From a virus: a stretch of 31,618 nt of DNA. This document shows, in pieces, positions 1,264 through 24,219 of this stretch (positions within the stretch are counted from its first letter, which is position 1; every line of letters starts with the position of its first letter). The DNA lies in the IMG/VR virus record IMGVR_UViG_3300029953_000115, positions 1-31,618 of that record; one strand, written 5' to 3'. The position numbers and the translations under genes were made by a program. The notes beneath the pieces are model-generated. The model worked only from the letters and a program-made list of their open reading frames with translations, did not search any database and was not told the DNA's origin.

Positions 1264-2391
1264 CTACGGGATTCGCAGGAGGTTTGCTTCGGCCTGGAGC
1301 GCATCGGCCAACATCATACGCCGTTCGTCCTGGGTTTCGTTTGGCATGGTCCCAAACTTGATTCCCTTCTTAACCTTGGCGATCATCTGCTTGGTGAGCC
1401 CCTGCGGGTCGGTTAGGTTCTGTGCCTTGTAGGCAGTCTCAAAGCGCAGCGCCGACGCCTGGAATTCCGCCCTTGCCTTATCGGCGTAGGGGGTGTCGCC
1501 AGTGTAGTCGGCCTCCCGCTGGAACGTGGACTTGTTCGCGGCCGGGGCGGGAGTAGGAGCAGGGGCGTCAACCGTCTTGGCCATGGCCTTGCGCAGTTTA
1601 TCGATCCTGGCTTCCAGACTGGGAAGCACCTTCTCTGCGGGGTCAGTGCGCTTCCGCCCTTCCCACTTTTCTTTCTCGGCATTGTAAAGGTCGGGCTGAC
1701 CGCCTGCCTTGAAGATGTTGTAGAGGTCGGTCTGCACCAGTGTAGCGAACCGGCCCTGGGCCTCGATGGTCCAGCCTTCCACGATGGGGTCCGGGTCTGG
1801 TTCGCGCCTGAGCTTGTCGTCCTGGTTGGCGCCCACGACCGGTTCGGCCGGCGGCGGTTGGGGTACCCCAACGGCAACTTTCTTGGCGGTAGCGGGATCC
1901 ACATCCCACGGTTTGTTGTTCAGGTATTTGTTCCCGTCGCACAACCCGTCATGGATGTCCCCACCTAGGCCGAGCCAGGAGCAGCACTTGGAGAATGCGT
2001 CAGTGTAGGCCTTTTTGAACGCTTCGTCGTCGCATTCCACGGTGTTGATCGTTCCGTCCGCATTCTTCCGCTGGCGCTCTGGCTTCACGGAGTCGAACGC
2101 CACGTCGCCGCCGTAGTGCGGTCCCACCTCGTTCCATTCCTTGTCCCCGGTCTCTTTGTAGAGCAGGGAGAGCAGCACGTAGACGGCCACCACCCCCGTC
2201 TGGGACTCGACAACGCGGGTGTCGTAGTGCTTGACCATCCATCCCTTGCCGCACAGGCCGAAGCGCTCGGTGAGCCGCTTGACCAGGTAGTAAGGAGATA
2301 CGGACTTTCCCTTGAACCCTCCGGGGCGACTGAACTCCTTGATCTCGTCTGCAGGAGTTGCAAAGAATGCGGTGAATGTATCGTTCTGCAT
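1264..2391 (-). CDS. Rad52/Sak-like single-strand DNA annealing protein
   Basis: This protein probably anneals complementary single strands in phage recombination. Residues 1-160 resemble Rad52-type phage annealing proteins. The diagnostic stretch is KKAYTDAFSKCCSWLGLG at about 126-143 followed by DIHDGLCDGNKY, the site where this family has a T-D-A-x-x-K-x-x-x-x-L-G-x-x-x-D pattern. A variable, proline- and alanine-rich C-terminus (about residues 170-330) probably mediates contact with SSB or polymerase, as in related annealing proteins (inference). ATG 2391 has a CGGAGGAC site about 8 bases upstream; in-frame sequence farther upstream reads through the previous gene. It lies directly downstream of a coiled-coil gene typical of recombination cassettes. 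The exact subfamily (Rad52, Erf or RecT) needs a profile search. Confidence 0.7.
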   Translation of the reverse strand: MQNDTFTAFFATPADEIKEFSRPGGFKGKSVSPYYLVKRLTERFGLCGKGWMVKHYDTRVVESQTGVVAVYVLLSLLYKETGDKEWNEVGPHYGGDVAFDSVKPERQRKNADGTINTVECDDEAFKKAYTDAFSKCCSWLGLGGDIHDGLCDGNKYLNNKPWDVDPATAKKVAVGVPQPPPAEPVVGANQDDKLRREPDPDPIVEGWTIEAQGRFATLVQTDLYNIFKAGGQPDLYNAEKEKWEGRKRTDPAEKVLPSLEARIDKLRKAMAKTVDAPAPTPAPAANKSTFQREADYTGDTPYADKARAEFQASALRFETAYKAQNLTDPQGLTKQMIAKVKKGIKFGTMPNETQDERRMMLADALQAEANLLRIP

Positions 2392-2393
2392 GG

Positions 2394-3368
2394 TTATCGT
2401 CCTCCGATACGGATCTGTTCTTTGATTGAAACCCCAGGGTAAGCACCCGGAGCCAATTTGGTGATGTCCGGGAAGTCCTTGCACAGCACTTTCATCAGCG
2501 CATTCAACAGAACCGGATCCGGACTGCACAAGTTGCGCGGGACTAGATTCGGGTCGATGATCTCCCAGACGAGCGGATAGCTGGTCTTCGTCCCTACGGC
2601 CGTGACGGGGGCGACATAGTTGGCCGGCAGAGATACGTTCTTGACCAGCGCGGCCGATTCGTGCAGGGCCTCACGGTAGCCGTCCTTGGCATCCTCCAGG
2701 TCGTCTTCCAAGATCGCGGCCAAGAATGGGTTAGGAGCGGAGACGACCGCTTGGGTAGCCTCTCGGAGTGTCGTAGCGGCCTCGTCCTTGATTCGCTGCG
2801 CTTCCGCCTCGGCCTCGTCCTTGATCCGCTGGGCTTCGGCTTCCTGCTTGCGCAGATCCTCCCGTTCCCGCGCCTTGAACGCGACCATCGGCAACTCATA
2901 GCGTTGAAGTTCGACCAGCAGGATCTTTTCTGCCGCTTTGAACCGGTCGTCAATGTTGCGCTTCACTTGGAGGATCGGGGCCGTGAGTTTCACCCGGTCC
3001 TTCTCGTTGTCGGCGAGCATCTTCTTGATCTTGGCGAACCCCAAGGACGCCTGCTCGTAGTCTTCGGCAGTCTTGACCACTACCGGCGCGGCTTGGGTTG
3101 CGAGTGTCTGAGCCTTGCGTTCGGCGGCCTCAGCGGAGGCTTCAGGACCAAGAATCTCGCCCTCTAAAGTAGGGTTCTCTTGGGCGACCTCCGGGGCCGA
3201 TTCTGGCTTCGGGGTGCCGAGGATGAGCGCGGCCTGATCTTTGATCTGCTCATCGGTCGGGTCCGACTTGAGAAAGTCCGGGATCACGAACAGAGAGTGC
3301 CGCAGCCCCTTGAATTCTTCACCCGGGAACAATGCCCGGATGCGTTCCCTTGCCTCATCGTTTGCCAT
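2394..3368 (-). CDS. Coiled-coil protein of the phage recombination cassette
   Basis: A 324-aa protein. Residues 95-215 form a long coiled coil, including a near-duplicated heptad block (EAQRIKDEAEAEAQRIKDEA, about 178-197). The C-terminal globular part resembles a widespread family of phage proteins found next to annealing proteins: WEIIDPNLVPRNL, then PGAYPGVSIKEQIRIGGR ending the protein. In that family the architecture is an N-terminal coiled coil and a C-terminal domain with a VP...l and PGV.i.e pattern; its biochemical role is not firmly established. The start has a perfect AAGGAGG site. It ends two bases before the annealing protein's ATG, so the two genes are co-translated. Confidence 0.7.
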   Translation of the reverse strand: MANDEARERIRALFPGEEFKGLRHSLFVIPDFLKSDPTDEQIKDQAALILGTPKPESAPEVAQENPTLEGEILGPEASAEAAERKAQTLATQAAPVVVKTAEDYEQASLGFAKIKKMLADNEKDRVKLTAPILQVKRNIDDRFKAAEKILLVELQRYELPMVAFKAREREDLRKQEAEAQRIKDEAEAEAQRIKDEAATTLREATQAVVSAPNPFLAAILEDDLEDAKDGYREALHESAALVKNVSLPANYVAPVTAVGTKTSYPLVWEIIDPNLVPRNLCSPDPVLLNALMKVLCKDFPDITKLAPGAYPGVSIKEQIRIGGR

Positions 3369-5136: not shown

Positions 5137-5859
5137 CTATTGGCGCGGAGTAGAAATGCCAAACTCTCGAGCCACACGGAACATTGCTATGGCTGCGTTG
5201 TATTCGGCAAGAAAGCGGGGATTGTCTGCGTGTTCCTGACTGACCCTGGCCACAAAATCCTCCAGGGATCCACCCTGGTAATCGTTCCAGCAGCCGCACA
5301 CCACGCGATCCTCGTCGATCCAGTAGGTGGTGGTCGCGCGCCGGCTGCCGATGGGGCCAATCTGGAGGACATTGATTCCGTCGGCACCGCTCAGGTTGGC
5401 ACCGCTCAGGTTGGCACGGCTCAGGTCGGCACCGCACAGGTCGGCACGGATCAGGTCGGCACGGATCAGGTAGGCACCGTTCAGGTTGGCACCGCTCAGG
5501 TCAGCACCGCACAGGTCGGCGCCGCACAGGTCGGCACCGCTCAGGTTGGCACCGTTCAGGTAGGCACGGTTCAGGTAGGCACGGTTCAGGTTGGCACGGT
5601 TCAGGTCGGCACCGCTCAGGTCGGCACCGCGCAGGTCGGCACCGCTCAGGTTGGCACGGCTCAGGTCGGCGCCGCGCAGGTGGGCACCGTTCAGGTAGGC
5701 ACCGTTCAGGTAGGCACGGTTCAGGTTGGCACGGTTCAGGTAGGCACCGCTCAGGTCGGCACCGCTCAGGTTGGCACGGACGCCGCCATTGGCATCAGCC
5801 AGCCACAGGGCATGCAGGCGGATGACCTCTTTCAGTTCGTCGGGGCTGTAGGTCTTCAT
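5137..5859 (-). CDS. Pentapeptide-repeat protein A (26 repeats), 240 aa
   Basis: After a 28-residue N-terminal helix (MKTYSPDELKEVIRLH) come 26 uninterrupted A(D/N/Y)L(S/N/R/C/I)(G/R) repeats at residues 29-158, the hallmark of the pentapeptide right-handed beta-helix. The C-terminal 80 residues form a separate domain (INVLQIGPIGSRRATTTY, then GCWNDYQGGSLEDF), also seen as a tail on other phage pentapeptide proteins. Some relatives (Qnr, MfpA) mimic DNA and bind gyrase, but most have no known function. The start at ATG 5859 has CAGGAG upstream; an in-frame extension to 5937 overlaps a micro-gene and is unlikely. A paralogue lies at 6443-7252. Confidence 0.85.
   Translation of the reverse strand: MKTYSPDELKEVIRLHALWLADANGGVRANLSGADLSGAYLNRANLNRAYLNGAYLNGAHLRGADLSRANLSGADLRGADLSGADLNRANLNRAYLNRAYLNGANLSGADLCGADLCGADLSGANLNGAYLIRADLIRADLCGADLSRANLSGANLSGADGINVLQIGPIGSRRATTTYWIDEDRVVCGCWNDYQGGSLEDFVARVSQEHADNPRFLAEYNAAIAMFRVAREFGISTPRQ
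5386..5775 (-). repeat. Tandem 15-bp repeats encoding the pentapeptide helix of protein A
   Basis: There are 26 imperfect 15-bp units. On the plus strand each reads approximately CAGGTNGGCACCGCT. The units differ by only a few bases, so slippage or recombination between copies is likely. Confidence 0.9.
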
Positions 5860-5875
5860 GGTGGATCTCCTGGGG

Positions 5876-5971
5876 TCAAAACCCCATGTAATTGGGGATG
5901 GGTGAATTAGCGATGATGCCCCATGCGATGGCGGCACCTACGATGATCAGGATGATTCGGTGCCGGTCCAT
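5876..5971 (-). CDS. 31-aa hydrophobic micro-protein
   Basis: The ATG overlaps the stop of the previous gene in a TAATG arrangement, a typical coupling signal. The product is MDRHR followed by IILIIVGAAIAWGIIANSPI, one clear transmembrane helix with a basic N-terminus. It ends 16 bases before the start of the pentapeptide-repeat gene. No family is known. Confidence 0.55.
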   Translation of the reverse strand: MDRHRIILIIVGAAIAWGIIANSPIPNYMGF

Positions 5972-6255: not shown

Positions 6256-6446
6256 AGTTCCCTCAGCCTGGTAATCCCATTGTTCGGATCAATATATAGT
6301 TCCGGGATCACGTTTTCCGGAACCTCGATGTAGCCCTCTGGAGAACCAGTTTCGGACTCCCATACTTCGTCCTCACTGGCGTTCCGGATGTATTCGCCTA
6401 CCTCCGTCAAGAGGTGGCCGTGGTCTACATAGACGCGCATGGTCAC
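6252..6446 (-). CDS. Acidic hypothetical protein, 64 aa
   Basis: The product is small and acidic (VGEYIRNASEDEVWESETG, then YIEVPENVIPELYIDP). The start is GTG 6446, overlapping the pentapeptide-repeat stop as GTGA; ATG 6440 is an alternative two codons in. Acidic phage early proteins are sometimes DNA mimics or inhibitors, but nothing here proves that. Confidence 0.5.
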   Translation of the reverse strand: MTMRVYVDHGHLLTEVGEYIRNASEDEVWESETGSPEGYIEVPENVIPELYIDPNNGITRLREL

Positions 6447-7252
6447 AAGTTGTATGCCTCAGCCTCTTCCTTAGTCAGGAAGAAATTGATGCCATGGGAA
6501 CATGTATCCCACCTGTTGTCGTCCCAGGAATCAGCCGTGACGCGCTGGCCAGCTCGATAAATGGTTCTTGGTGTGTGGTCCGAGTAGCATTCTTCGGCTC
6601 CGATCACCTCTAGCACATTCACAAACTCGGCCCGACATTTCCGCTCTGCGCCATGGGATCGCCGGGCATCTTCCGGGACCAACAGTTTAACGATGACATC
6701 ACCACTGACGGAGTGACACTTCTTCCAGGCCCAGAACGGCCCGGTTGGCGGGATGTGCATCCTTATTGCTAGCGCGAGTTCCGCTCCCTTGGCACCGTTC
6801 AGGTCGGCACGGTTCAGGTTGGCCCCGCTCAGGTTGGCACCGATCAGGTTGGCGTCGCGCAGGTTGGCACCGCTCAGGTAGGCACCGTTCAGGTCGGCAC
6901 GGCTCAGGTAGGCACCGTTCAGGTAGGCCCGGCTCAGGTCGGCACCGTTCAGGTAGGCGTCGCGCAGGTTGGCACCGCTCAGGTAGGCCCCGCTCAGGTC
7001 GGCCCAGCTCAGGTTGGCCCCGCTCAGGTTGGCCCCGATCAGGTAGGCGTCGCGCAGTTCGGCCCGGCTCAGGTCGGCCCCGCTCAGGTAGGCACCGCGC
7101 AGGTTGGCCCCGCTCAGGTCGGCCCGGCTCAGGTTGGCACCGCTCAGGTCGGCACCGCGCAGGTCGGCACGGACGCCGCCATCAGCATCGGCCAGCCACA
7201 GGGCATGCAGGCGGATAACCTCTTTCAGTTCGTCGGGGCTGTAGGTCTTCAT
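6443..7252 (-). CDS. Pentapeptide-repeat protein B (25 repeats), 269 aa
   Basis: This is a paralogue of protein A. The first 22 residues are identical to protein A, followed by 25 A(D/N/Y/E)L.(G/R/D) repeats at residues 29-153. The C-terminal domain is different and longer (IRMHIPPTGPFWAWKKCH, then SGDVIVKLLVPEDARRSHG), with a conserved look around CRAEFVNVLEV. This C-terminus is of a type found alone or on other phage pentapeptide proteins; its function is unknown. The start at ATG 7252 follows GGAGAACTGAA. The shared N-terminal helix with different C-terminal domains suggests a common scaffold with two effectors. Confidence 0.85.
   Translation of the reverse strand: MKTYSPDELKEVIRLHALWLADADGGVRADLRGADLSGANLSRADLSGANLRGAYLSGADLSRAELRDAYLIGANLSGANLSWADLSGAYLSGANLRDAYLNGADLSRAYLNGAYLSRADLNGAYLSGANLRDANLIGANLSGANLNRADLNGAKGAELALAIRMHIPPTGPFWAWKKCHSVSGDVIVKLLVPEDARRSHGAERKCRAEFVNVLEVIGAEECYSDHTPRTIYRAGQRVTADSWDDNRWDTCSHGINFFLTKEEAEAYNL
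6794..7168 (-). repeat. Tandem 15-bp repeats encoding the pentapeptide helix of protein B
   Basis: There are 25 imperfect 15-bp units of the same consensus as in the neighbouring paralogue, with more variants such as GCGTCGCGC. The two arrays are about 1 kb apart in the same orientation, so they could recombine and delete the genes between. Confidence 0.9.
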
Positions 7253-12334: not shown

Positions 12335-12627
12335 TGCAGGTTGTTCTAGATGCCCAATGCTGGGGGGGGGCTCTTGCTGGACTTCCCCAGTATGACGTGC
12401 GGGTGTTCCTGGCCCTAGTGTTCATGGCGAGGGGTTCCTACACTGTCGCGTTCAAGAACGAGCAACTGATATCCAAGTCTGGCGTGTGCAAGTCCCTGGT
12501 CCAAAGGGCCATCTGGGACATGAACAAGCGCGGGATGCTGAAGGTGATCCAGCGCATTGGAGGGGACTACAACCGCACCATTGTTGACTTATCTCCTGAC
12601 TGGGTAACTCTAGGGGAGAACCTATGA
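12334..12627 (+). CDS. Winged-helix protein, 97 aa
   Basis: The ATG overlaps the preceding stop. Residues 25-80 form a winged helix (VFLALVFMARGSYTVAFKN, then ISKSGVCKSLVQRAIWDMN, KRGMLKVIQRIGG), a pattern of phage replication- or transcription-type proteins with sequence RGMLKV for the wing. The role is probably DNA binding in late-early regulation; no closer identification is possible. Confidence 0.6.
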   Translation: MQVVLDAQCWGGALAGLPQYDVRVFLALVFMARGSYTVAFKNEQLISKSGVCKSLVQRAIWDMNKRGMLKVIQRIGGDYNRTIVDLSPDWVTLGENL

Positions 12628-13061
12628 CGTGTATCGCCTGGGATGGGAAGACTCTAGCTGCGGATAGGCAGGGAACCAATAATGGCCTCAAAATTTTATG
12701 CACCAAAATAAAGAGGCTCAAGGGTGGTGCCGTTGTTGCGTTCACTGGCGAACTTGAGATGGGGATTGAACTTGCCAAGTGGTGGGAAGATGGGGCAGAC
12801 CCTGAGAAATGGCCGTCATACCAAGCGACAGACGATTGGACCCGAATGATCATTGCCCAGGATGGTCATGTTTCCGTCTACGAGAAGCGTCCCATCCCCC
12901 AACCCGTGGAAGATCCATTTGCAGCATGGGGATCTGGACGCGACTTCGCTATCGGGGCCCTTGCCATGGGAGCAGACGCTCGAACGGCGGTCGGAATTGC
13001 TAGCAGATTCAACACTGGCAGTGGGATGGGGATTGATTCGTTTGAGGTAGGCAATGGGTAA
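12624..13061 (+). CDS. Ntn-hydrolase, proteasome beta/HslV-like peptidase, 145 aa
   Basis: The protein begins MTCIAWDGKTLAADRQGT; once Met is removed, Thr2 would be the N-terminal nucleophile, as in HslV. The conserved Asp (AADRQG, residue 14) and a Lys in CTKIKRLK (28 or 30) match the positions of the proteasome-fold catalytic Asp and Lys. The AFTGELEMGIELAKWWEDG block and the GSGRDFAIGALAMGADA helix are typical of the family. At 145 residues it is a little shorter than HslV (about 175). Phage relatives are annotated as proteasome-like proteins and their role is uncertain. Its start (ATGA) is coupled to the preceding gene and its stop overlaps terminase small subunit. Confidence 0.7.
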   Translation: MTCIAWDGKTLAADRQGTNNGLKILCTKIKRLKGGAVVAFTGELEMGIELAKWWEDGADPEKWPSYQATDDWTRMIIAQDGHVSVYEKRPIPQPVEDPFAAWGSGRDFAIGALAMGADARTAVGIASRFNTGSGMGIDSFEVGNG

Positions 13062-13857
13062 GCGGAGAGACTCAGACATCCCGGTTGATCCTGCCATCGA
13101 GGATGCCAGGGTGATGGCAAGCCGAGTCCCGTTGACGCTGGTTGACGCGATGGAGATGTTCTTCACTGAGAACCCGAGTTTGGGCGTGGGTGATCTCCGG
13201 GCGGACATCACCCTGGAAGCTTTGCAGCGCACCGAACACCAGGACCACTGGACGATATGCGGGCGGAAACTGGACCGCGCCTCTGTTATGGAAACCATCT
13301 TGGACCTGACGGCCCGGGGGTACTCGATCCCAGCCATCCTCCAGCAGCCTGGGATGCCGAAGCCTCGTACCTACATGGCTTGGGTAAATGACTACAAGGT
13401 TTTCGCGGACATGATGGCGGTGGCCGAGCAGATGCGGGCCATCATCCTTGCCGAGCAGGCATTGAATATCGTGGACCTCCCGGACCCAGACGGTAGCCAG
13501 ACTTTTAAGCATAAAATCCAGTCAGACCTTCGCGTTCGTCTAGCTGAAATATTCAATCCAAAGAAATACGGCAAGAAGCAGGTCATTGACATCAACCGCC
13601 ACGATGACGCCAACCCGGCCGAGATGTGGAGCCGGTTCATCAGCGTCCTGAGCGTCTACAAGCAAATGATCTTCGACAAGACGGGGATCAAGGTCATCAT
13701 GCCTGGGGAGAGTGAGGACATGGTGGCTACGGCAGACGCCGAAGTGGTTCCCGAGGAAGAAGAGATGGAAGCCATTGGGATGGAAGGCGCTACCGATCCG
13801 ACGACGCCCACGAACTACGATGATATGCTCACGTTCGATGACCTTCCAAAGGAGTAG
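13054..13857 (+). CDS. terS: Terminase small subunit
   Basis: This protein binds viral DNA to start packaging, as a partner of TerL. It starts at ATG 13054 with GAGGTAGG upstream, overlapping the previous stop. The central region has a helix-turn-helix pattern typical of TerS (LTARGYSIPAILQQPGM, then KPRTYMAWVNDYKVFADMM), followed by AEQALNIVDLPDPDG and RVRLAEIFNPKKYGKK, which match the usual TerS sequence of helical oligomerisation core plus RKW..A...P.KYG. The C-terminus is acidic (EVVPEEEEMEAIGMEG). TerL follows two small genes later, a common order. The 267-residue length is longer than average. Confidence 0.8.
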   Translation: MGKRRDSDIPVDPAIEDARVMASRVPLTLVDAMEMFFTENPSLGVGDLRADITLEALQRTEHQDHWTICGRKLDRASVMETILDLTARGYSIPAILQQPGMPKPRTYMAWVNDYKVFADMMAVAEQMRAIILAEQALNIVDLPDPDGSQTFKHKIQSDLRVRLAEIFNPKKYGKKQVIDINRHDDANPAEMWSRFISVLSVYKQMIFDKTGIKVIMPGESEDMVATADAEVVPEEEEMEAIGMEGATDPTTPTNYDDMLTFDDLPKE

Positions 13858-14208: not shown

Positions 14209-16182
14209 ATGCCGAAACACAACGACCTATTCGGCTTGGTCCAGGGACTCAGCGACTTTTCAACCCTGGTTGAGCAGGAAGCGGCTACGGCGTTCGTTGA
14301 CATTTGGACGAGGCGTCCACCCAACAAACCACAACTCGCCTTCTGGGAGTCGAAGCGGCACATCAAGGCCATCTCTGGGGCCAATCAGTGTCTTCGCGGA
14401 GACGCCGCCGTCCTGATGTGGTGCGGGGATGAGAAACGGATCGACTGTATCGAAGTCGGTGATGAAGTGGTGGCGTTCGACTTCACCACGGGCGAGTTTG
14501 TCCCGAGCCAAGTCAAGGCCATCTTCACCAATCCGGGTCGCATCCTGCACCGATTCAAGCACTCACAGGGCTGGCTGGAGTGCAGCCAGAAGCACAAGGT
14601 GGCCGTGCAATACCCCTCCGGCCGCATCGCCCTAGTTAGGGTCATGCGGGCCGTGAAGCACCAGCTTCCGGTGTGGGTGGACAAGGAAGGCCATGCGGAA
14701 CTGTCCGAGCTGACCTACGAGGGGAAGATTGGCTACGAGCCTACCTGGGACATCAACATCGACCACCATGACCACGCCTTCGTGTGTAATAATATTGTAG
14801 TTTCCAATAGTGGTAAAAGCTTGGCTGCGGCCGTAAACATTGCTTGGGATGCCACGGGCATCTACCCGGAGTGGTATCGGGGCCCGCGCACAGTCCGAGG
14901 CATCAACGCTTGGGTGGTCGGTGAAACTACCGAGTTGACCCGAGACTCGGCCCAGAAAAAGTTGTTTGGACCCAACATCGACAAGCCCGGGTGGACGGAC
15001 AAGCCGGGTGACGAGGCCCTGATCAACTCGAAATACATCATCGACAAGCCGACTCGTAAGTCTGTTTCCGGTGCCATTGACATGGTTCGGGTGAAGCACG
15101 TCCCGAGCGACACAACGTCCCTGATTGCCTTCAAGTCGCACGGCATGGAGACAGGGGCCCTCGCCTCCTGGACTGGTGATAGGGCGTGGATCGATGAGGA
15201 ATGCCCGTTGGAGATCCTGGACGAGATCCAGGCCCGCATGTCCACCACCAACGGCTACATCTACTGCTCGTATTGCCCACAGCACGGCCGGACTCCCTTC
15301 GTGAAATCCATGGAGGAAGAAGGCCCGGACGTGTTCCTAGCCTACATGACCTATGATGACATCAACCACATCTCAGAAGAGGTGAAGGCCCGCAATATCC
15401 GCCGCTGGTCACATGATCCGGCGATGCTTGCAGCCAGAACCCAGGGCCATGCAACCTCGAATTCTGGTCTTATCTTCCCGTTCCCTACCAAGGACATCCT
15501 TTACGACCCCGCCTTGATCTCCATTGGCAAGCGGTGGAAGTTCCTGGGGGGTATGGATGTTGGCTGGACCCATCCTACGGCCGCCGTAGGGCTCGCTCTA
15601 GACCCCATGGCCGATGTTGTCTACTGCTATGTGGACTACGAGCAGGACCGCCGGCCCCCGGTTTACCACTACGGCGAGCTGGACCGCTGGGGACGGTCGA
15701 TGACATTCATGATCGACCCTGCTTCGGACCAGGTGGCCCAGAAAGATGGAGAAAAGATCCTTGAAGAGTATTGGACTCTTGCACATGGGTCTGGATATGA
15801 AAATATTGACGAAGATAAACGCAAGTTTATCAAAGCAGACAACTCGTTTTTGACTGGTATGGGGAATCTGTGGCACAGATTCAGCACTAATCGCCTATTT
15901 ATTAGCAAGAATTTGAAAAAGTTGATAGACCAATACGCGAATTACGAGTGGAACAAGAAGGGCGATGGCCCAATGGAAGAAACTCCGAGCCGGAAATATG
16001 ATATCATCACGAGTTTGCGCTATGGAGTTGGTGGTATTAACCAGTATTCTCATATTCTGAACGACTTCCCCCCTTGGATGACGGCTGAATCGTTCGAGGA
16101 ACCGATTGAGATCAAGGAGTGGTCGAAATTCCGTGCTGGTGGATCCCCACCGATCACTGACCAGTTCGGTCACACCTACTGA
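14209..16182 (+). CDS. terL: Terminase large subunit precursor with a mini-intein in the Walker A motif
   Basis: TerL is the packaging motor ATPase and nuclease. The precursor is 657 residues, 517 after intein removal. The Walker A is split: SGANQ at residues 56-60, intein 61-200, then SGKS at 201-204; joined it reads SGANQSGKS. The Walker B is AWIDEE (326-331). The C-terminal RNase-H-type nuclease has Asp 450 (GGMDVGWTHP), Asp 503 (FMIDPAS) and Asp 598 (KYDIITSLRYG). The start at ATG 14209 fits the natural N-terminus (MPKHNDLFGLVQG); the ORF is open to 14164, but that extension overlaps the zinc-ribbon gene. Active packaging requires splicing, because the ATP-binding loop is interrupted. Confidence 0.85.
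   Translation: MPKHNDLFGLVQGLSDFSTLVEQEAATAFVDIWTRRPPNKPQLAFWESKRHIKAISGANQCLRGDAAVLMWCGDEKRIDCIEVGDEVVAFDFTTGEFVPSQVKAIFTNPGRILHRFKHSQGWLECSQKHKVAVQYPSGRIALVRVMRAVKHQLPVWVDKEGHAELSELTYEGKIGYEPTWDINIDHHDHAFVCNNIVVSNSGKSLAAAVNIAWDATGIYPEWYRGPRTVRGINAWVVGETTELTRDSAQKKLFGPNIDKPGWTDKPGDEALINSKYIIDKPTRKSVSGAIDMVRVKHVPSDTTSLIAFKSHGMETGALASWTGDRAWIDEECPLEILDEIQARMSTTNGYIYCSYCPQHGRTPFVKSMEEEGPDVFLAYMTYDDINHISEEVKARNIRRWSHDPAMLAARTQGHATSNSGLIFPFPTKDILYDPALISIGKRWKFLGGMDVGWTHPTAAVGLALDPMADVVYCYVDYEQDRRPPVYHYGELDRWGRSMTFMIDPASDQVAQKDGEKILEEYWTLAHGSGYENIDEDKRKFIKADNSFLTGMGNLWHRFSTNRLFISKNLKKLIDQYANYEWNKKGDGPMEETPSRKYDIITSLRYGVGGINQYSHILNDFPPWMTAESFEEPIEIKEWSKFRAGGSPPITDQFGHTY
14389..14808 (+). other. Mini-intein (140 aa) inserted in TerL Walker A
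   Basis: The intein begins at Cys61 with CLRGDAAVLMW (block A) and ends IVVSN before Ser201 (+1 Ser). Block B is present as ECSQKHKVAV (Ser in place of the usual Thr, His conserved at intein position 69). The C-terminal block reads TWDINIDHHDHAFV, then CNNIVVSN. The penultimate residue is Ser instead of the usual His, with terminal Asn present. No homing-endonuclease domain (LAGLIDADG or HNH) is present, so it is a splicing-only mini-intein. This is a well-known insertion site type for phage terminase inteins. Confidence 0.85.
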
Positions 16183-22935: not shown

Positions 22936-24219
22936 ATGGCAAAGGGCCGGTCCATCCTGGTGGTTTCCCACTTTGGCGGGGTCGGAGAATTGTGCAAACG
23001 GTTCCTTGGCGAAGGGAACCGAGTCCGCTATTACATCAAGGACAAGCCCAGCCAGGACATCAACGATGGCCTGATCCAGAAGGTGAAGCACTGGGAACCC
23101 TATGTGGCGGAATCGGACCTGATAGTTTTCGACGACACGAATTTCGGCAAGGTGGCCGATGAACTGCGGTCCCAAGGCAAGGCGGTCGTCGGGCCCTGCC
23201 CCTACTCCGACAAACTGGAGATGGACCGTGGTTTCGGTTCCGAAGAGATGAAGAAGGCGGGGATGACGGTCATTCCGGACTGGAACTTCACCTCGTTCGA
23301 TGAGGCCATTGCCTTCGTGAAGCAGAACCCGGGGCGCTACGTGGCGAAGCCAAGCGGCAAGGCCCAGGATGAGAAGGCCCTGACCTATGTGGGCAAAGCC
23401 GATGATGGGTCTGATGTGCTTGCCATCCTGGAGAACTACAAAAAGAAGTGGGGCAAAAAGATCCACGAGATTCAGCTTCAGCAGTTCGTGAAGGGCGTGG
23501 AAATCGCGGTGACTGGATTCTTCAACGGAGAGAAGTTCATCCAGCCCATTTGGCTCAATTCTGAGTACAAGAAGTTCCTAAACGGTGATCTTGGCCCAAA
23601 TTGTGGAGAAAGCGGAACAACTTCATCGTGGGTTCGAGGTGGTCGTCTCTATGAGGAAACCCTGGCCAAGATGGAAGATCCTCTCCGGGCGGCGGGCTAT
23701 CATGGCCCGTTTGATGTCAACCTGATCGTTACTAAGGAGGCGGCCTATCCTTTGGAATTTACTCCGAGGCCCGGTTTTCCATCTATTTGGATTCAGATGG
23801 AAAGCATCAAGTCCAACCTGGGTGATTTCTTCGATGCGCTCGGGAACGGGAACAAGTTCAACCTCCAGGTGGAATCCGGTTTTCAGATGTGCGTGGTCTG
23901 CACCGTGGCCCCATATCCGTTTGAGGACCCCGAAGGGTTTAAGAAGTATGCCGAAGGGCGGAAACTGGAATTCAAAGATCCGACCCTCAGTGGCATCTAC
24001 CTCTCGGATGTGAAGCTGGTCGGTAACGAATGGGTCCTGGCCGGGAACAGTGGGTATGCTGTGATCTGCGTCGGGCTTGGGCAGACTATGGAGGAAGCCA
24101 AGGAGAACGTCTACGAACGGGTCAAGTCCGTGAGTATCCCGGACATGGCCTATCGGACTGACATCGGACATCATTGGAACAACGACCGCGACAAACTCCA
24201 GGCGTGGGGCTGGCTGTGA
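22936..24219 (+). CDS. PurD-like ATP-grasp ligase (GAR synthetase homologue), 427 aa
   Basis: PurD (phosphoribosylamine-glycine ligase) joins glycine to phosphoribosylamine using ATP. This protein has the full three-domain layout and length of PurD (about 429 in E. coli): a Rossmann-like N domain (GGVGELCKRF, residues 14-23), ATP-grasp (VAKPSGKAQDEKAL, 136-149; E189 in FVKGVEIAV), a substrate loop DLGPNCGESG (218-227, PurD DTGPNTGGMG), the metal-site strand LEFTPRPGF (273-281) and a C domain ending in GLGQTMEEAKENVYE. Differences: the GREHA phosphate-binding motif of PurD is replaced by GGVGEL, and the metal-ligand Asn of EFN is Thr276. The substrate may therefore differ. It lies inside the head-tail gene cluster, with GAGGT before its ATG. 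Confidence 0.75.
   Translation: MAKGRSILVVSHFGGVGELCKRFLGEGNRVRYYIKDKPSQDINDGLIQKVKHWEPYVAESDLIVFDDTNFGKVADELRSQGKAVVGPCPYSDKLEMDRGFGSEEMKKAGMTVIPDWNFTSFDEAIAFVKQNPGRYVAKPSGKAQDEKALTYVGKADDGSDVLAILENYKKKWGKKIHEIQLQQFVKGVEIAVTGFFNGEKFIQPIWLNSEYKKFLNGDLGPNCGESGTTSSWVRGGRLYEETLAKMEDPLRAAGYHGPFDVNLIVTKEAAYPLEFTPRPGFPSIWIQMESIKSNLGDFFDALGNGNKFNLQVESGFQMCVVCTVAPYPFEDPEGFKKYAEGRKLEFKDPTLSGIYLSDVKLVGNEWVLAGNSGYAVICVGLGQTMEEAKENVYERVKSVSIPDMAYRTDIGHHWNNDRDKLQAWGWL

Follow-up and report, generated by a model that had tools for sequence, protein, structure and literature searches.

A probable cis-splicing mini-intein in the Walker A motif of a viral large terminase, beside the putative homing site of a second intein

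Inteins in the P-loop of large terminase subunits (TerL) are already known, and the mini-intein described here adds a member at a less usual position. As in our locus, the mycobacteriophage inteins TerL1-a and TerL1-b lie in the Walker A motif of the large terminase (Kelley et al. 2016, PMC5050341). That report describes two P-loop sites one residue apart, a close spacing that recurs here, and it gives splicing for representatives and endonuclease activity for two of these inteins. The haloarchaeal MCM-a and MCM-d inteins resemble our case in that one ATPase harbours two inteins with neighbouring homing sites (Turgeman-Grott et al. 2023, PMC10643990), and their alleles are described as carrying one, both or none, as is the case here. 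The TerL of cyanophage Mic1 carries two inteins, one of them with an endonuclease, as do some relatives of the phage studied here, and its authors propose that the inteins control packaging (PMC7156551).

We analysed an entire IMG/VR virus record of 31,618 bases (IMGVR_UViG_3300029953_000115), referred to below as the window. Its TerL gene has a small terminase gene upstream and a portal-like gene downstream. Conserved motifs of the mini-intein are called blocks B, F and G below. The features of the locus are:

13054 to 13857, plus strand: small terminase subunit, Sf6-like, the upstream neighbour of TerL
14209 to 16182, plus strand: TerL precursor gene, 657 amino acids with the intein and 517 when spliced; Terminase_6N, PHROG terminase large subunit
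14209 to 14388, plus strand: N-extein, 60 amino acids, ending in the first Walker A half, GANQ (14377-14388)
14389 to 14808, plus strand: class-1-like mini-intein, 140 amino acids, from Cys1 to Ser139-Asn140 (residues 61-200 of the reading frame)
14578 to 14595, plus strand: block B, E-C-S-Q-K-H, with Ser66 and His69
14749 to 14775, plus strand: block F, D121 to H129 (DINIDHHDH)
14803 to 14808, plus strand: end of block G, penultimate Ser139 and Asn140
14809 to 16179, plus strand: C-extein, 457 amino acids, starting with SGKS, the second Walker A half (14809-14820), whose Ser is the +1 residue

A first-pass annotation of this DNA had placed a 140-residue intein at 14389-14808, interrupting Walker A between GANQ and SGKS, and we confirmed its frame, coordinates and boundaries. 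The insert separates the fourth and fifth residues of the motif (GANQ^[C...VSN]^SGKS). Its deletion in silico raised the Terminase_6N match (Pfam) from 26.4 to 35.2 bits, with profile positions 2-210 covered, which is close to the 36.4 bits of an intein-free relative (L016/L042). Alignment of the junction with intein-free TerL homologues, which the annotation had proposed as a check, gave the same result: L016/L042 reads an intact GANQSGKTH at the insertion point. Excised exactly, this in-frame insert leaves an intact Walker A motif and a higher Terminase_6N score. A chance reading is excluded: five related records (G001-G005) carry the same insert, a sixth (G006) has it truncated at the end of its contig, and homologues in other contigs are 44-56% identical.

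To what family the insert belongs was less evident from profile searches. Matches to the Hint profiles, a search that the annotation had proposed as a check, were obtained (Hint, E 7e-5; Hom_end_hint, E 0.01), but both fell below the curated Pfam cut-offs. The NCBIfam match was weak, PHROGs gave no match for the insert itself, and phmmer against the PDB returned one weak match, the DnaX mini-intein 7cfv (E 0.035); a four-row profile of the insert matched PI-SceI alone in the PDB (E 0.0038). As Pfam, NCBIfam, PHROGs and phmmer were each weak or empty, the fold was settled by a structure model. AlphaFold2, with eight homologues as input, gave a compact Hint fold with a mean pLDDT of 97.6. The best Foldseek match was the Ssp DnaB mini-intein 1mi8 (E 9.7e-9, TM 0.84), with which VIA-align aligned 133 residues (Z 20.6, rmsd 1.8). 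Hedgehog Hint domains align equally well (6tyy, Z 20.7, VIA-align), so the fold alone has no power to name an intein, and the residues and the host protein have to decide. The absence of an endonuclease, also part of the earlier description, was upheld: the insert is 140 residues long, has no LAGLIDADG or HNH match and is modelled as a compact Hint domain, which makes it a mini-intein.

All of the active-site residues listed at first pass are present, namely Cys1, the C-terminal Asn, the +1 Ser, the penultimate Ser (Ser139) and a Ser in block B (Ser66, in C-S-Q-K-H). Cys1, His69, Asp121, His126, Asp128, His129, Ser139 and Asn140 are invariant in all eight homologues aligned, as is Cys65 adjoining block B, and every mini-intein row aligned has the +1 Ser. 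In the Thr-x-x-His motif of block B, His69 is invariant and the first position is Thr in five of eight homologues and Ser in three (window, G005, L052); on this alignment, the block-B Ser is a lineage trait. Because Ser139 is invariant in 8/8 homologues, we read it as a family trait and not as decay. The Hint fold, the Cys1 nucleophile, Asn140, the +1 Ser and an in-frame removal that restores the host motif are those of a class 1 intein; the penultimate His, common but not defining for class 1, is replaced in all eight by Ser, an unusual residue there for an intein with Cys1. A penultimate Ser is described as the rule in class 2 inteins of the KlbA type, which are defined by Ala1 together with this Ser (PMC4031507, which the block naming also follows in part), and as normal for them in PMC7765530 as well. 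The mini-intein has Ser139 but Cys at residue 1, and is thus not of class 2.

The non-canonical Ser139 and Ser66, together with the equally good fit of Hedgehog Hint domains, could instead suggest a dead or merely cleaving Hint domain (a pseudo-intein, BIL- or Hedgehog-like) that leaves TerL unligated. We consider this very improbable. An unligated TerL would have no Walker A motif, every catalytic position is kept in 8/8 homologues, and a penultimate Ser is normal in KlbA-type class 2 inteins (PMC4031507, PMC7765530). Furthermore, the insert is as constrained as TerL itself: between the window and G005, whose TerL C-exteins are 94% identical, dN/dS was 0.041 for the mini-intein and 0.043 for the C-extein. 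By this measure the mini-intein is under strong purifying selection, with the same constraint as its host protein. Since a dead insert in the P-loop would be neither tolerated nor expected to keep its active site, the mini-intein is presumably functional and self-splicing. The identification as an intein, and as a mini-intein, is thus borne out by the Hint model, the conserved catalytic residues, the homologues and the restored Walker A.

By analogy with known inteins, Cys1 would take up the N-extein as a thioester, the +1 Ser would then accept it as a branched ester, Asn140 would cyclise with Ser139 standing in for the usual His, and the exteins would join to give GANQSGKS. That unspliced TerL should be unable to bind ATP follows soundly from the interrupted P-loop. 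The mini-intein, devoid of an endonuclease, would have persisted while TerL diverged to about 50% identity, and would stay intact since a P-loop ATPase should lose all activity if splicing failed. The mini-intein tree is poorly resolved and gives no backing for vertical descent.

The first-pass annotation had gone further and suggested that splicing controls when packaging starts. Conditional splicing, responding to redox state, temperature or DNA, could indeed explain why an endonuclease-free element occupies 18 of 20 related P-loops and is as constrained as its host protein, and the invariant Cys65 beside block B (8/8) would be in keeping with it. The same pattern would arise, however, if exact loss were rare and inexact loss lethal, and five mycobacteriophage terminase inteins are reported to have spliced readily (PMC5050341). 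A regulatory role is speculation, and we think it rather unlikely.

The distribution of the mini-intein was assessed by querying viral contigs with the TerL C-extein, without selection for inteins. This gave 22 close relatives and one remote match (L065). With L065 left out, and likewise G007, G008 and L043, which start downstream, 19 loop-covering contigs and the window made up 20 P-loops. The independent lineages are fewer than 20 because of near-duplicates: the window and G001 share 99.99% identity across 31.5 kb, and two further near-duplicate pairs are L052/L053 and L063/L064. The mini-intein family was present in 18 of the 20 loops; one loop was empty (L016/L042) and one held an unrelated intein (L037). 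In L038, L058 and G006 the start of the intein is missing, and its end and junction are visible. All four of the more distant phage TerLs that were checked have an intein-free P-loop. Among named phages there was no close relative of the mini-intein; the matches were P-loop and helicase inteins of Vibrio phages, which aligned with half to two thirds of the query and were about 30-32% identical to it. A pattern scan of genome contigs gave 181 matches, none of them a relative. We also observed a mini-intein in another packaging-type ATPase (L057:2440-2820), at the equivalent point GMR^C...VHN^SGKTT; it is 24% identical to that of the window and has a penultimate His of the usual type.

The insertion point is not the same throughout the family. 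The endonuclease-free mini-intein lies at GAN[QR]^SGK (site a) in 15 of the 18 loops, and at SGK^S (site b), three codons or 9 bases downstream, in the remaining three (L038, L039, L041). A mis-delimited intein in L041 was considered and rejected: SGK precedes Cys1 and is absent after the Asn, so that Walker A is restored by site b alone. L041 is placed with L059, a site a lineage, in the extein tree (support 98/99), and from this sister relationship the site b placement is probably derived, by slide or by replacement. The sister placement would suit a slide of the L041 intein from site a to site b. The intein-to-extein distance ratio of the L041-L059 pair was 2.52, the highest among 36 pairs, meaning that their mini-inteins are more divergent than the host proteins predict, which would instead favour replacement.

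Site b is also used by a second intein, which we call int2. G003, G004 and G006 have TerLs with 99-100% identity to that of the window and carry, alongside the mini-intein, a 347-residue insert at site b (GANQ^[140]^SGK^[347]^SL), and the extein between the two consists of Ser-Gly-Lys alone. Our searches of open papers in PMC turned up inteins at neighbouring sites, as well as P-loop sites separated by a single residue, and no coexisting pair with so short an extein between them. int2 contains two LAGLIDADG stretches (PF14528, LAGLIDADG_3, E 6.1e-11) and is thus a predicted endonuclease. Class 3 was taken to comprise inteins that lack a nucleophile at position 1 and have a block-B Trp, a block-F Cys and a Thr preceding the final His-Asn, and int2 shows this set: Ala1, W66 (HLW), C327 (with C325 nearby) and T345-H346-N347. 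Its best PDB match was 6riz, which is gp41-1 engineered with C1A, F65W and D107C, and the class 3 DnaB inteins 6bs8, 6rix and 6riy matched as well. The best relative in a named phage was the terminase P-loop intein of the Methanosarcina virus MetMV (MK170447), which aligns with the whole of int2 at 35% identity and has the same site (GK^T), Ala1, HLW, block-F Cys and THN end. This class 3 intein is related to int2 and not to the mini-intein of the window. Given the class 3 residues, the gp41-1 match and the MetMV relative, we term int2 a class-3-like LAGLIDADG intein. It is present in three of nine records (G003, G004, G006) and absent from G001, G002, G005 and G007-G009, though G007 and G008 have no P-loop coverage. 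That int2 had been overlooked in the window's own lineage was rejected on this distribution.

A further intein of the same loop was found at site a in L037 (1975-3000, plus strand). It has 342 residues, begins with Cys1, ends in ...VLNHN and is unrelated to the mini-intein; its C-terminus matches Intein_splicing (E 8.3e-6), and the middle part, read in the sense frame, encodes a low-complexity linker. On the opposite strand, within the intein (2162-2896, minus strand), a 244-residue protein is encoded with an HNH_3 match (E 1.6e-10), PHROG HNH endonuclease matches (5e-25) and HTH matches, and an in-frame ATG, the fifth codon of the listed reading frame, is preceded at a distance of six bases by GGAG. 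L037 may thus carry an intein with its homing endonuclease gene antisense inside it. A scan of the contigs gave no second copy of this arrangement, which is known from this one contig only.

The annotation had concluded that loss of the endonuclease left the mini-intein fixed in place. This holds in so far as 18/20 P-loops are occupied and purifying selection is strong. It does not hold to the codon, as a homologue sits three codons downstream in 3/18 loops, nor for the loop as a whole, which other inteins still invade (int2 in G003, G004 and G006, and the unrelated intein in L037).

From these sequence comparisons we conclude with high confidence that the window carries a class-1-like, cis-splicing mini-intein in Walker A and that SGK^S is a homing target of int2, unoccupied in the window. 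As part of this explanation, the window would represent the empty allele of a site that is filled in its close relatives. Two further features describe this site:

14806 to 14823, plus strand: empty int2 site, codons N-S-G-K-S-L, with the insertion point between 14817 and 14818
14785 to 14823, plus strand: broader A+T-rich block covering 13 codons, with silent differences from G003 in 12 of them (17 bases)

The window, G001 and G002 read AAT AGT GGT AAA AGC TTG at the empty site, and G003, G004 and G006 read AAC TCG GGA AAG ^ TCG CTC. Eleven of the 18 bases of this patch differ without any residue change, which is the maximum that synonymy allows for these codons, and the insertion point of int2 lies at the centre of the patch. 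In the 891 bases around the patch, the window has 3 differences from G004; the enrichment has a naive hypergeometric probability of 1.4e-18, for a patch that was picked after being seen. The two Ser codons of the P-loop each change class, between TCN and AGY, a switch found elsewhere at 0/173 aligned Ser codons against G004 and 5/143 against G005. G+C was as low in 12 of 4819 coding windows of 36 bases, three of them here; others lie at about 15796 and 15886 in TerL.

Comparison of the two int2 alleles indicated how the intein may have moved. Between G003 and G004, int2 differs at 2 of 1041 bases and the 18 flanking bases at none, and the wider flanks differ at 21/420 bases in the mini-intein and 9/474 to the right. 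Against the window, by comparison, the flanks of G004 differ at 4/420 (one of these being the final mini-intein base, which belongs to the patch) and 0/474, and the changeover to the left falls within 6 bases, between mini-intein positions 414 and 420. Since int2 and the 18 bases are common to G003 and G004 in spite of unlike wider flanks, and the G004 flanks match the window, we read int2, with about 12 bases to the left and at least 6 to the right, in two backgrounds, as the expected mark of homing with short co-conversion.

On this basis, the patch would be a co-conversion footprint. A G003/G006-like donor would have passed int2 to an allele like that of the window, giving G004, and the window would simply be uninvaded, with incidental codons. 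The shared int2 and 18 bases in differing wider flanks, the window-like flanks of G004 and its narrow left changeover speak for this explanation, which we slightly favour. Three points weigh against it. The recipient site itself is unseen, and if it was window-like, the int2 endonuclease cut it despite 11/18 mismatches; the recoding reaches the synonymous maximum, 11 of 11; and, with TCN at the first P-loop Ser of all other lineages read, AGT in the window looks derived. Alternatively, the patch would be a homing-resistant allele, in which silent recoding, selected by the int2 endonuclease or brought in by exchange, keeps the GKS protein and destroys the DNA target. The 11/18 silent differences against 3/891 in the flanks, the two switched Ser codons, rare elsewhere, and the centring on the insertion point are consistent with such resistance. 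However, the second Ser codon is AGC also in L059, L044, L050, L037 and L041, and its switch may be old; plain import of A+T-rich DNA would look the same, with like blocks near 15796 and 15886; and TerL is mosaic in general. We thus regard resistance as possible but the less probable account, and rank co-conversion ahead of selected resistance.

Several other features of the window were observed. A stretch of the TerL nuclease domain (15400-16000) differs from G002, G004 and G006 at 15-20 positions per 200 bases, with flanks on either side that are almost the same, a mosaic exchange; the A+T-rich blocks near 15796 and 15886 fall within it. Upstream of the small terminase gene, 12605-13054 has no match in G002, G003 and G004, and both flanks align at about 96-99%, as for a replaced cassette; it holds an HslV-peptidase-like gene (12624-13061; PHROG 1040, E 7.8e-34). 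Two genes on the minus strand (5137-5937 and 6443-7252) contain long 15-base tandem repeats, with 26.5 and 25.3 copies, and encode pentapeptide-repeat-like proteins (ANLSGADL). Among the structural genes, a gene at 22936-24216 (plus strand) matches the ATP-grasp (E 4e-10) and C (E 9e-10) domains of phosphoribosylglycinamide synthetase.

One essential loop thus accommodates several selfish elements: a near-universal mini-intein, a displacement of its site by the length of SGK, and re-invasion 9 bases away. Because the P-loop motif is fixed at the protein level, conflict between phage and intein would be expected in silent codons, and a silent footprint of the expected kind is present at the second site. 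This raises the question of whether hosts escape homing by synonymous changes. If the resistance reading were true, a phage P-loop would have escaped an invading intein by silent recoding, beside an old, domesticated mini-intein.

The comparison with known systems brings out what is particular to this locus. The Ssp DnaB mini-intein (1mi8) shares with ours the Hint fold, Cys1 and the C-terminal Asn. It differs in its host protein, is 16% identical, and has the penultimate His that Ser replaces in the window. The mycobacteriophage hosts are terminase_1 proteins with TerL1-a at K^T (PMC5050341), whereas the window TerL matches Terminase_6N and its mini-intein site lies three residues further upstream. 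Unlike the mycobacteriophage inteins as described there, the mini-intein is endonuclease-free across its clade and coexists with a second intein in three phages (PMC5050341). Of the two haloarchaeal inteins, MCM-a alone is described as lying in Walker A, with MCM-d elsewhere in the helicase domain (PMC10643990); here the insertion points are 9 bases apart, so that the last codons of the mini-intein form part of the int2 target region. The Mic1 inteins, finally, are divided between the ATPase and nuclease domains of TerL (PMC7156551), whereas in the int2-bearing phages both inteins occupy one loop.
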